From: a virus
Virus record (IMG/VR): IMGVR_UViG_3300034023_000185
Location: 1-35,040 of that record
Length of the DNA stretch: 35,040 nucleotides
Direction: 5' to 3' (one strand)
The notes beneath the pieces were generated by a model. It had not been told where the DNA came from. It ran no database searches and saw nothing but the letters and a program-made list of their open reading frames with translations. Position numbers and translations under genes: made by a program. How positions within the stretch are numbered: the first letter of the stretch is position 1; the number at the start of each line of letters is the position of its first letter. This document shows, one piece after another, positions 3,530 through 35,040 of the stretch.

Positions 3530-4012
3530 TTAATACGCAAAAATATCGGTGTTTAAAACAGCTTGAGGTATACGCCAGTAAGGGTTGTTAATCGGTTGAC
3601 CTGAACGATCCTTGTCTACCCAATACTCCGGGCATTTAGCTTCTTTACCGGTCAACCAACCAACAATTTTTAGGTCAGGGTACATACCAACTACGAGATA
3701 ATACCGCCGCTCATCATAATCCCGTGGCCTGATGATCAACGGTCCATCGGTTTTAATGGTGCTGCGTACCTCTATGTTTGACCCTACATCGGCCACAGCT
3801 CGATTAAGACTGGCCACGTTGCAGTACAGACCAAGAGTTTTGCCTACAAATGCCTCCGCTATAGCGCCATGAATGTGATGCGTAAATGTATCAACAGTTA
3901 TGTTCCCGTTGTTGTCTTTTGCGCCTCTTTCAATGGCCCTAAATTGTCTCTGTAGACCCGCTACAGCGGCGTTAAAGGCTTCCCCATGATCTAATCGTCC
4001 GATTGCGTCCAT
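3530..4012 (-). CDS. Putative PD-(D/E)XK-type nuclease or nuclease-fold protein
   Basis: A 160-residue protein whose middle follows the endonuclease-fold order. A helix carries Glu53 (GAIAEAFVG), then come DVG (Asp75) and IEVRST (Glu81-x-Arg83), followed by strands LIIRPRDYDE and YLVVGMYP. The last catalytic Lys is Arg here, so it may be inactive or divergent. Similar GAxxE...DVG..EVRST proteins occur in many phages, usually listed as hypothetical. The C-terminus holds GWLTGKEA and NPYWRIP. A GAGGAC ribosome site precedes the ATG. It is the second gene of the operon, next to the SSB-like gene. Confidence 0.6.
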   Translation of the reverse strand: MDAIGRLDHGEAFNAAVAGLQRQFRAIERGAKDNNGNITVDTFTHHIHGAIAEAFVGKTLGLYCNVASLNRAVADVGSNIEVRSTIKTDGPLIIRPRDYDERRYYLVVGMYPDLKIVGWLTGKEAKCPEYWVDKDRSGQPINNPYWRIPQAVLNTDIFAY

Positions 4013-4333: not shown

Positions 4334-4353
4334 GTTGTCTCCTTAAAAAGTTG

Positions 4354-4384
4354 CTTACCGTAAGTGACCATAGTACGCTATAAG
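4354..4384 (+). promoter_or_regulatory. Candidate divergent promoter/operator between the SSB-like and HTH genes
   Basis: The 77-base gap between divergent starts must hold promoters for both operons. CTTACCGTAAG at 4354-4364 is a perfect 5-bp inverted repeat around one base. It overlaps a weak plus-strand -35 (TTACCG, 4355-4360) placed 18 bases before TATAAG (4379-4384). On the minus strand TACTAT (4370-4375) could be the -10 of the first early operon, the same hexamer used by the better promoter at 8572. Functional assignment is inference. Confidence 0.4.
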
Positions 4385-4410
4385 AGAATCGGCAAGTGGA
4401 AAAAGATGCT

Positions 4411-4599
4411 ATGAACGATCAAAAAGATGAAAAATATGTGACGCCAAAAGAGTTATGCAACCATTTTGCATTCTCGGATTGGTTTATGCGCAAGTGTTTG
4501 AAGCAAGGCATACCTTACTTAAAAGTAGGAAGGGATTATCGTTTTAGAATTTCGGAAGTAGAAAAATGGCTTAAACAACAGGAAAACAACAATGGATGA
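4411..4599 (+). CDS. Excisionase/MerR-like helix-turn-helix protein
   Basis: A 62-residue protein reading YVTPKELCNHFAFSDWFMRK then IPYLKVGRDYRFRISEVEKW. This is the two-helix wing pattern of small HTH_17 or excisionase-type DNA-binding proteins. Such proteins bind DNA near promoters or recombination sites. No integrase is present here, so a regulatory or origin-binding role is likelier than excision. I chose the ATG at 4411, while a GTG at 4396 would add five residues. It overlaps the initiator gene by eight bases, so the pair is co-translated. It may act on the operators flanking it. Confidence 0.7.
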   Translation: MNDQKDEKYVTPKELCNHFAFSDWFMRKCLKQGIPYLKVGRDYRFRISEVEKWLKQQENNNG

Positions 4600-5212
4600 G
4601 CACGTACCATGGAAATTGGCTTTGTTAATTGACGACGACATTATTTGTAACCCTGATTTGACTTGGACTGAACGAATAATCTTTTCGTACGTGCAAGGCT
4701 TTGATCGAAACAACAAGCCGTGTTTTGCCACCAGTAAAGCCATCGCTGACCGTTTTCATTTGAACGAATCCCACGTGCGTTTTGCTCGTTCTGCTCTTGT
4801 CAAGAAAGGGTTGTTGAAACGAATTGAACGAGATGGTCGAATATACTTTCGGACGAAGTTTGTGATTTCAGGTTGGTGTCCATCGGAAAGTGAGTCTGAA
4901 AAAGATGAACAAAATCAGCTGTTGGATAAACCAACACTGTTGGCTGGCACCAACACCACTGTTGGAAATACCAACACCGACCGTTGGCCAGCACCAACAC
5001 CCACTGTTGGCCAGCGCCAACACCCACCGTTGGCTGGCACCAACACATATAATAATACTTATAATAATAATTATAATAAAACTAAGATCCAAGATCAGGT
5101 AAATGTTTCACTTGGTAAGATTTCCGTACGACAGCCAGAACTCAATCTTGAGAAAGCAAATCAAGCTGCAGAACGGTTTGGACTACGTCGTAGGTTTGGA
5201 GATGCCGATTAA
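4592..5212 (+). CDS. Replication initiator with winged-helix domain (lambda O-like role)
   Basis: A 206-residue protein. Residues about 20-95 form a winged helix: LTWTERIIFSYV, then ATSKAIADRFHLNESHVRFA as the helix-turn-helix, then KKGLLKRIERDGRIYF as the wing. The middle, about 110-170, is a low-complexity Thr/Asn/Pro stretch encoded by six DNA inverted repeats and an A+T-rich block. The C-terminus is a short basic tail (RFGLRRRFGD). An initiator that carries iterons in its own gene is the arrangement of lambda O and its origin. No helicase or loader gene follows, so host DnaB/DnaC-type proteins would have to be recruited directly. The call rests on domain type plus the embedded repeats. 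Confidence 0.75.
   Translation: MDEHVPWKLALLIDDDIICNPDLTWTERIIFSYVQGFDRNNKPCFATSKAIADRFHLNESHVRFARSALVKKGLLKRIERDGRIYFRTKFVISGWCPSESESEKDEQNQLLDKPTLLAGTNTTVGNTNTDRWPAPTPTVGQRQHPPLAGTNTYNNTYNNNYNKTKIQDQVNVSLGKISVRQPELNLEKANQAAERFGLRRRFGDAD
4920..5085 (+). other. Candidate origin of replication: six iterons plus A+T-rich block
   Basis: Six inverted repeats of the form (T/C)GTTGG-N5/6-CCAACA lie head to tail at 4920-4936, 4938-4955, 4960-4976, 4982-4999, 5005-5022 and 5028-5045. Start-to-start spacing is 18, 22, 22, 23 and 23 bases, near two helical turns, so a protein bound to each would sit on one face of the DNA. Immediately after the last repeat comes about 40 bases of almost pure A+T (5046-5085), suited to strand opening. 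Iterons followed by an A+T-rich unwinding element inside the initiator gene are the hallmarks of lambda-type origins. Confidence 0.75.
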
Positions 5213-5421
5213 AAGCTTCACAATGAACGCTGTGGCACGATAAGGCTCTAGGGTATATCTGAGGTAGGTCCAAGATTAGAATTGAATAGCGTTCATCCTA
5301 GAGGCTTGAAAGAAAGGTTGTGCGAAGTGGTTAGAATGTGTACATTGGAGATGCGTGATCTAGTCCATCATGTCTCCATGCCCTCTCGTCAGTAAGCAAT
5401 TACCGGCGAGAGGTTTTTTTT
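5213..5421 (+). ncRNA. Structured non-coding region with pseudoknot, ending at an intrinsic terminator
   Basis: No gene lies here. Two long complementary pairs interleave. ATGAACGCT (5223-5231) pairs with AGCGTTCAT (5288-5296), nine perfect base pairs. CTCTAGG (5246-5252) pairs with CCTAGAG (5297-5303), seven perfect pairs plus three more after one mismatch. The second partner arms abut exactly (5296/5297), giving an H-type pseudoknot with stackable stems. A further hairpin, TGGAGA 5346-5351 with TCTCCA 5373-5378 and an inner TGAT/ATCA, follows, then the terminator. It could be a stable small RNA or a structured 3' untranslated region of the initiator transcript. No known RNA family is recognised and no separate promoter is obvious. 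Confidence 0.6.
5382..5421 (+). terminator. Strong rho-independent terminator
   Basis: CCTCTCGTC (5382-5390) pairs with GGCGAGAGG (5405-5413), nine pairs with one G-U. An inner GTAA/TTAC stem is capped by a GCAA tetraloop of GNRA type. Eight Ts follow at 5414-5421. It ends the plus-strand transcript of the HTH and initiator genes and the structured RNA. The last T is also the base complementary to the A of the CCA end of the tRNA-like gene on the other strand. Confidence 0.85.
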
Positions 5422-5498
5422 GGCTCCAGGTGTTGGTAACGATCCAACCTCAGTCTCGCTTAACGGGCGAGTGCGATCACCATGATTGCTAACCTGGA
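5421..5498 (-). tRNA. tRNA-Asn-like gene (anticodon GTT) with encoded CCA
   Basis: Read on the minus strand, the segment folds as a 78-base cloverleaf. It has a 7-bp acceptor (TCCAGGT with ACCTGGA), a D arm with GG in the loop, a perfect anticodon stem CTCGC/GCGAG with loop CCGTTAA (anticodon GTT at 5462-5464) and a six-base variable loop. A perfect T stem GTTGG/CCAAC, discriminator G and encoded CCA follow. Oddities: position 33 is C instead of the near-universal T, the T loop is ATCGTTA instead of TTCGANN, and the D stem has an A-C mismatch. It begins six bases after the stop of the 5505 gene, so it would be processed from that operon's transcript. It may be a decoding tRNA, a degenerate one or a tRNA mimic. 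Confidence 0.55.
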
Positions 5499-34325: not shown

Positions 34326-35040
34326 AACTCTTGATTGTGTTGTTAGCATTGATGGCTACTGCACAAGCTCAAGCACCTAGTTACTTATCTCTTTGTCATC
34401 CCACAACTGATTGTAAGGCTCTTAAACGCACCTGGCGCGGGCAGGATACCATTATTACTGGCTGGCTTGAGCAAACGTTTGGCTCAAAATGTAAATGCGC
34501 TGACGAGCTTTTAGCGAGCCGTAAAGCCAAGGTCATACGAGTACATTTAATTAACTCGCCATGTATGCGTAACGGTAGGTGCGGGAAGTATGAGGTGCTG
34601 CATGGCGAAACGGCAAGTTCTGCTAGTAAGAAAGTAATCAGAAAGAACCGTCAATTTTTGCATAAGTTTGACAGAGTAGTACGAAGGTTTAGAAATCGAT
34701 TAACAAGAGCGACTGGTAGTGTGCAGTGTTATGTGTCGCCCTGCTTAGAGTGTGATCTTAATGGAAAAGCTCGAAAACATCTTGCCACTCGTGTATCTGA
34801 TATGTTGCCTAGCTGTATCATTGTGGATAATCCTTTCGGATCCGCCTGTTTGCCTGGGTATGTCTGTGAGAAACACGGAGCAAGTCCTAAAATCGCTGCG
34901 CCATGTATAGTTGATTTAGACGGTGTTGACGGGACAGATATTAACGTTGACAAGTTTGCCGCTCGTTATCGACACTGTGACATAACCTTTTATTGGGAAC
35001 ATTGGATGAACTGTATTCGAGGTTCGTTTGTTGACCCTCG
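34322..35040 (+). CDS. Exported cysteine-rich protein, N-terminal part (continues at base 1)
   Basis: The frame opens at the ATG overlapping the previous stop (ATGA) and runs past the window end. Joined with the equivalent of base 539 onward it encodes 272 residues. The N-terminus is a clean signal peptide (MKLLIVLLALMATAQAQA, cut before PSYL). The mature protein has 18 cysteines and segments VIRVHLINSPCM and KYEVLHGET that look like strands of an alpha/beta enzyme. Exported, disulfide-rich and inside the lysis cassette, it may be a periplasmic hydrolase. I cannot name a family. This copy carries Val, Thr, Asp and Lys where the left copy has Met, Ala, Ala and Glu. Confidence 0.8.
   Translation, partial: MKLLIVLLALMATAQAQAPSYLSLCHPTTDCKALKRTWRGQDTIITGWLEQTFGSKCKCADELLASRKAKVIRVHLINSPCMRNGRCGKYEVLHGETASSASKKVIRKNRQFLHKFDRVVRRFRNRLTRATGSVQCYVSPCLECDLNGKARKHLATRVSDMLPSCIIVDNPFGSACLPGYVCEKHGASPKIAAPCIVDLDGVDGTDINVDKFAARYRHCDITFYWEHWMNCIRGSFVDP
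34503..35040. repeat. Terminal overlap, right copy
   Basis: Second copy of bases 1-538, running off the window end inside the same reading frame. The coding frame continues seamlessly from 34322 through this copy. The join to base 539 onward is therefore supported by an uninterrupted 272-codon reading frame. Divergence from the left copy is mainly at third codon positions. Confidence 0.9.

Follow-up and report, generated by a model that had tools for sequence, protein, structure and literature searches.

A predicted small RNA beside an exchanged replication initiator in several clades of uncultivated phages

Main finding

The window, that is, the whole stretch of 35,040 nucleotides analysed here (a 35-kb IMG/VR phage), very probably encodes a non-coding phage small RNA (sRNA) of no known family that ends at a strong terminator. 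Judged from sequence, it represents a new phage sRNA family whose structure is conserved and whose kind is an ordinary one. The best explanation, which we hold to be reasonably probable, is that a sigma-70-type promoter produces an RNA of about 69 nt that acts in trans by pairing with ribosome-binding sites. Conservation, the promoter pattern, the covarying stems and independence from the neighbouring replication initiator were established by computation. The features are listed in Table 1.

It is uncommon for a phage sRNA to be traceable, compensatory base changes included, through several uncultivated phage clades. This one stays in place while the adjoining initiator is swapped, and it has a tRNA-Asn gene beside it. 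It offers testable parts: a promoter, a U-turn loop, an anti-Shine-Dalgarno strand and, as target, a single candidate among the phage genes.

Table 1. Features of the sRNA locus and of its surroundings
Feature	Position	Strand	Remarks
Candidate target gene	3530-4012	-	160 aa; conserved DVGxNxEVR; weakly PvuII-like predicted fold
Replication initiator	4592-5212	+	PHROG replication initiation; upstream of the sRNA locus
Long imperfect inverted repeat, 5' arm	5212-5233	+	Contains the 5' arm of helix 1
Helix 2, 5' arm (preliminary description)	5246-5252	+	Helix not conserved
Long imperfect inverted repeat, 3' arm	5286-5307	+	Contains the 3' arms of both helices
-35 element TTGTGC	5318-5323	+	Belongs to the promoter as predicted; TTG invariant in 14/14 aligned homologues
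-10 element TACATT	5341-5346	+	TATGAT in L136; TACCGT, TACCTT or TAACTT in clade D; TATATT in L110
Predicted sRNA, about 69 nt	5353-5421	+	Based on promoter distance, covarying hairpin at +1 and terminator
5' hairpin	5353-5373	+	Stem 5353-5359/5367-5373; loop 5360-5366, CUAGUCC, U-turn YUNR
UGUCUCC, CU-rich	5371-5377	+	Invariant except GCCUCC in clade B2
Intrinsic terminator stem, nested GCAA tetraloop stem	5382-5413	+	T8 at 5414-5421
tRNA-Asn(GTT)	5421-5498	-	ARAGORN; convergent, directly past the terminator; same place in most relatives

Phage and relatives

The ends of the window overlap by 538 bp (1-538 versus 34503-35040, 97% identical), and the sequence of a relative, L002, crosses the end junction; on these two grounds the phage genome is probably circular or permuted. 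PHROG matches are to a replication initiator, an Erf-like recombinase, a terminase and a portal protein. Within the initiator gene lie five CCAACAC...GTTGG iterons (4931-5033) and, after them, a stretch of 92% A+T (5047-5086), which together are likely the replication origin. This gene is exchanged among relatives, both flanks being retained. The divergent intergenic region 4334-4395 contains the palindrome CTTACCGTAAG, possibly an operator, situated where the leftward genes and the HTH-initiator operon diverge. The tRNA-Asn(GTT) gene occurs in several different sequence versions among relatives and is cleanly absent from L001, L120, L137 and L140; the copy of the window is very divergent and is missed by the Rfam tRNA model. 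In the host search, portal relatives were only 24-31% identical and were found in 5/398 phylum genomes and 1/399 order genomes, and naming a betaproteobacterial host would be guesswork.

Relatives were gathered with the Erf-like and portal proteins, DNA patterns and the neighbouring protein p5505. The most distant homologues were found with the neighbouring tRNA-Asn as anchor and a pattern of promoter, UGUCUCC and T-tract. The sRNA locus is present in about 20 related IMG/VR contigs, which form five sequence clades. The interval is 94-98% identical in the close relatives L001, L120, L007, L101 and L089. More distant homologues are L100, L132 and L138 (clade B1), L177 and L178 (B2), L136 (C), L008, L009, L010 and L019 (D) and L110 (E). 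Alignment A2 includes 14 distinct homologous sequences. Database searches gave no match in INPHARED or PLSDB. A pattern scan of genome contigs returned 25 matches, none significant with the profile of the element, and the last viral scan returned 12 matches in new contigs, all unrelated.

Structure and conservation of the predicted RNA

A preliminary description had placed one structured RNA with a coaxial pseudoknot over 5213-5421. That interval is indeed gene-free (no ORF of at least 60 aa covers it), and the window has no Rfam 15 match above the gathering score, in keeping with the earlier impression that no RNA family matches; among the relatives, only tRNAs exceeded the Rfam cut-off. Folding energy lies below that of shuffled sequences (5213-5421: z -2.7, 2/200; 5203-5421: z -2.3). 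The idea of a phage small RNA stood, with its extent redrawn: with the conserved promoter as guide, the predicted RNA spans 5353-5421, not 5213-5421.

The 5' hairpin corresponds to the one previously given as 10 bp. It is present, with seven pairs in its stem, and is extendable by GGAG/CTCC in the window. Its cells are 98% paired; in L177 and L178 one G-C pair has become C-G, and the last pair, A-U in the others, is G-C in clade D. A 7-nt loop is found in every type and fits S-U-W-G-U-Y-N (for L177, whose minimum-energy fold closes one G-U pair of the loop, the last G-U pair is assumed to be open). The loops are CUAGUCC (clades A and C, L009, L019), CUAGUCA (L008, L010), CUUGUCA (L110) and GUUGUUN (clade B). 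Most of them fit YUNR, the U-turn motif described for the recognition loops of antisense RNAs (PMC6562991, PMC4485353); in clade B (GUUG) the Y is not kept. The 7-nt loop lies in the first hairpin in clades A and C and in the second in clade D, where the second hairpin has compensatory changes at 4/9 pairs.

Otherwise, CAUGUCUCCA varies hardly at all across the homologues. The structural model leaves CUCC unpaired, and this stretch could base-pair with Shine-Dalgarno sequences. The intrinsic terminator is as initially reported, with a nested GTAA-GCAA-TTAC stem and the T8 tract. Its stem sequence is replaced wholesale between clades with pairing retained: in a test with swapped arms, own pairing gives -20 to -26 kcal/mol versus mostly -7 to -17 kcal/mol across distant clades. 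In the prediction, the RNA has its own promoter and a Rho-independent terminator with a long U tail, as is characteristic of trans-acting sRNAs of the Hfq/ProQ type. A small peptide starting at ATGTCTCCA was considered and rejected; in the window its frame reaches the terminator without meeting a stop codon.

Predicted promoter and start

The pattern TTG-N3-17 nt-TA-N3-T (5318-5346) occupies the same columns, always with 17-nt spacing, in all 14 sequences of A2. It is the only TTGnnn-17-TAnnnT site conserved in 14/14 and is found on one strand only (both were examined); 0.4 such sites per sequence are expected by chance. The pattern is also present in L008, L009, L010, L019 and L110. In clade D its distance to the hairpin is unchanged, the whole layout being repeated in L009, L010 and L019, and L110 keeps the 17-nt spacing. 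The six-base discriminator between the -10 element and the hairpin is variable (17-33% identity), and the stem begins exactly at the predicted +1, 5353. The promoter of the window matches the consensus at 7/12 positions and was not flagged by a consensus scan; that of L136 (TTGATT/TATGAT) is the only one flagged among those scanned.

Inverted repeats upstream of the start

The two interleaved repeats on which the pseudoknot had been based are exact in the window: 5223-5231 with 5288-5296 (helix 1, 9/9 pairs) and 5246-5252 with 5297-5303 (helix 2, 7/7 pairs), the 3' arms being adjacent. The conserved coaxial H-type pseudoknot itself was not borne out, as both helices lack compensatory changes in their arms. 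In A2 (n=14), 88% of the helix 1 cells are paired, with 0 pairs changed on both sides, and 71% of the helix 2 cells, with 0 compensatory changes. For helix 2 alone, 460/500 shuffles pair equally well. Its outer two pairs are retained in 2/14 and 3/14 rows, its duplex falls from -18.5 kcal/mol in the window to about -3.6 in L177 and L136, and it is lost in distant clades. Two helix 2 bases, 5246-5247, belong to the most variable tetramer of the element (5244-5247, seven alleles in nine clade-A sequences, with nearly invariant surroundings).

Helix 1 forms the centre of an imperfect inverted repeat of 22 positions. The duplex of this repeat reaches about -19 to -26 kcal/mol with the own sequences of clades A-C. 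When the whole element of the window, L137 or L136 is folded, the minimum-energy structure contains the repeat; in that of the window, helix 1 is lengthened at its outer end and takes part of the 3' arm of helix 2. In clades A-C no pair of the repeat is changed on both sides, and arms taken from different clades form duplexes at least as strong as own arms do, so that a covarying RNA stem is not supported. Clades D and E did not show the repeat (the initiator gene of L010 ends inside the promoter region). Because of the absence from these clades and the lack of covariation, the long repeat is placed outside the core of the element; it may be an operator, a DNA site or a fold in read-through initiator mRNA. 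Another hairpin, the RNAalifold consensus CUAGGGU/AUCCUAG, was also discarded; it is broken in L178 and L136 and shares bases with the long repeat.

An RNA of about 209 nt with a coaxial H-type pseudoknot is accordingly very improbable. Pairing is perfect in the window, and the CTAGG/CCTAG core is intact in 10/14 rows, with wobble pairs in one more. Against this stand the unconserved helix 2, the lack of compensatory change in either helix and the position of both helices upstream of the predicted start, in a repeat that clades D and E do not show.

Independence from the initiator and alternative explanations

The element lies directly past the initiator stop codon in most relatives, and a read-through initiator mRNA would end at the same terminator. 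It could then be a structured 3' untranslated end of that mRNA, made of a stability element and a terminator and having no separate promoter; the preliminary description had likewise proposed a protective 3' end. The initiators, however, are only 25-28% identical (aa) to that of the window in L120, L100 and L010. In L120 the element is 94-98% identical although the initiator upstream is only about 25% identical, and in L134, L135 and L140 the sequence just upstream of the element is different. L019 has the sRNA with no initiator upstream, the non-coding gap extending up to a divergent neighbour gene. The swapping of the initiator and its lack in L019 argue against a mere 3' UTR, and the proposed protective role fails on the same facts, the unit persisting beside unrelated initiators and where there is none. 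A 3' UTR would also leave the conserved promoter pattern unexplained. We regard it as unlikely.

The downstream side offers two other explanations, both rather improbable and to a similar degree. A cis-acting antisense RNA, or a collision terminator, could limit the convergent leftward operon (p5505 and tRNA-Asn): nearly all relatives have the element and the tRNA/p5505 side in convergent orientation, the scan detected nothing resembling a terminator on the minus strand around 5213-5421, and lambda OOP, working on cII, provides a likeness. Yet no ORF of at least 60 aa lies opposite 5353-5421, and full-length antisense pairing needs neither a conserved loop nor a CU-rich single strand. Alternatively, the element could be only a terminator at a module boundary, conserved by recombination between phages at this junction. 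This would fit L001, whose identity drops from 98.9% before the terminator to 90% after it, and the presence or absence of the tRNA, which switches exactly at the terminator. It fits poorly with a hairpin that covaries and with promoter positions and loop length that are kept though the terminators share little sequence.

Proposed action and candidate target

In the preferred reading, a trans-acting sRNA, RNA synthesis would start at about 5353 from the sigma-70-type promoter at 5318-5346 and would end at the intrinsic terminator, at 5421. The product would consist of a 5' hairpin with the 7-nt U-turn loop, a short UGUCUCC single strand and the terminator hairpin. Its most likely mode of action is in trans: the loop would make the first contact with a target, the CUCC strand would pair with Shine-Dalgarno and start regions, and this pairing would keep mRNAs of the phage, the host or both from being translated. 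We infer the transcription, the pairing with ribosome-binding sites and the targets.

A duplex-energy search found no phage target that holds in every clade; only the gene at 3530-4012 stands out. For pairing of the sRNA with its start, computed with own sequences, z ranges from -2.1 to -2.8 in clade A and is -2.5 in L177, -1.7 in L009, -1.5 in L010, -2.7 in L019 and about 0 in L132 and L138 (clade B1); p is 0.003-0.083 in clades A, B2 and D and 0.5-0.7 in B1. In the window this pairing energy is the second best genome-wide, and other translation starts also lie below shuffles. A complement of the loop is found at the 3530 start in several phages, as it is at about 8% of the starts of the window. 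The gene is missing from L136, which retains the sRNA. From this sequence comparison it is the best phage target candidate, only a lead. In the fold search the ten best matches of its protein were to PvuII endonuclease, all weak (best E 0.017, TM about 0.4), and the modelled product is possibly a PvuII-like nuclease.

Comparison with known RNAs

Lambda OOP resembles the RNA of the window in being short, in having its own promoter and in lying near a replication gene and origin region, but it is antisense to cII (PMC12197685), whereas the phage RNA has the same direction as the initiator. Membership in the OOP-type cis-antisense RNAs was rejected, no ORF of at least 60 aa being opposite. Lambda PreS and other phage trans sRNAs are likewise short phage RNAs thought to tune host or phage mRNAs; PreS, encoded between ea10 and ral, depends on Hfq and has dnaN as its target, and the likeness is one of description (PMC12197685). 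Plasmid and type I antitoxin antisense RNAs have U-turn YUNR loops, as has CUAGUCC (PMC6562991, PMC4485353), but they lie opposite an overlapping target and none was found at this locus.

The only suggestive hit in Rfam, RF02278 (Betaproteobacteria toxic small RNA, or Burkholderia double-hairpin RNA: bdhR1, ncS27), is a family of double-hairpin sRNAs of 57-92 nt in Burkholderia (B. cenocepacia) (PMC5688073, PMC4603805). Its consensus opens with UGUCUCC, identical to 5371-5377 of the window, and both RNAs have this CU-rich single strand, a short hairpin and an intrinsic terminator. Members fetched from genomes begin with UGUCUCCUCCA or UGUCUCCUCUA and read UGUCUCCUC(C/U)A, hairpin, terminator. 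The RNA of the window scores 13.8 bits at 5371-5420, far below the 50-bit cut-off of the covariance model, and membership was rejected; a genome-scale search of ten phage records with this model returned nothing at E<=10. The arrangement also differs. UGUCUCC is 5' in RF02278, whereas in the phage RNA it follows the hairpin in clades A-D and is near the 5' end only in L110. The hairpin of the window thus precedes this motif and that of RF02278 follows it, their sequences being different; a hairpin placed between UGUCUCC and terminator is absent in the window and present in clade D and L110.

Bordetella S17S, related to RF02278, acts at ribosome-binding regions (PMC11722255), and such action has been proposed or shown for S17S and family members (PMC11722255, PMC5688073, PMC4603805). 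An action similar to that of the RF02278 sRNAs is possible. The further proposal that the phage sRNA imitates the UGUCUCC sRNAs (RF02278/S17S), which are widespread in betaproteobacteria, using or soaking up their network of pairing with ribosome sites and so reshaping host translation during infection, is a long shot. A seed common to a host sRNA family would, if true, point to regulatory mimicry. As many as nine RF02278 members (of L203-L222) occur together in a single genome (G176).
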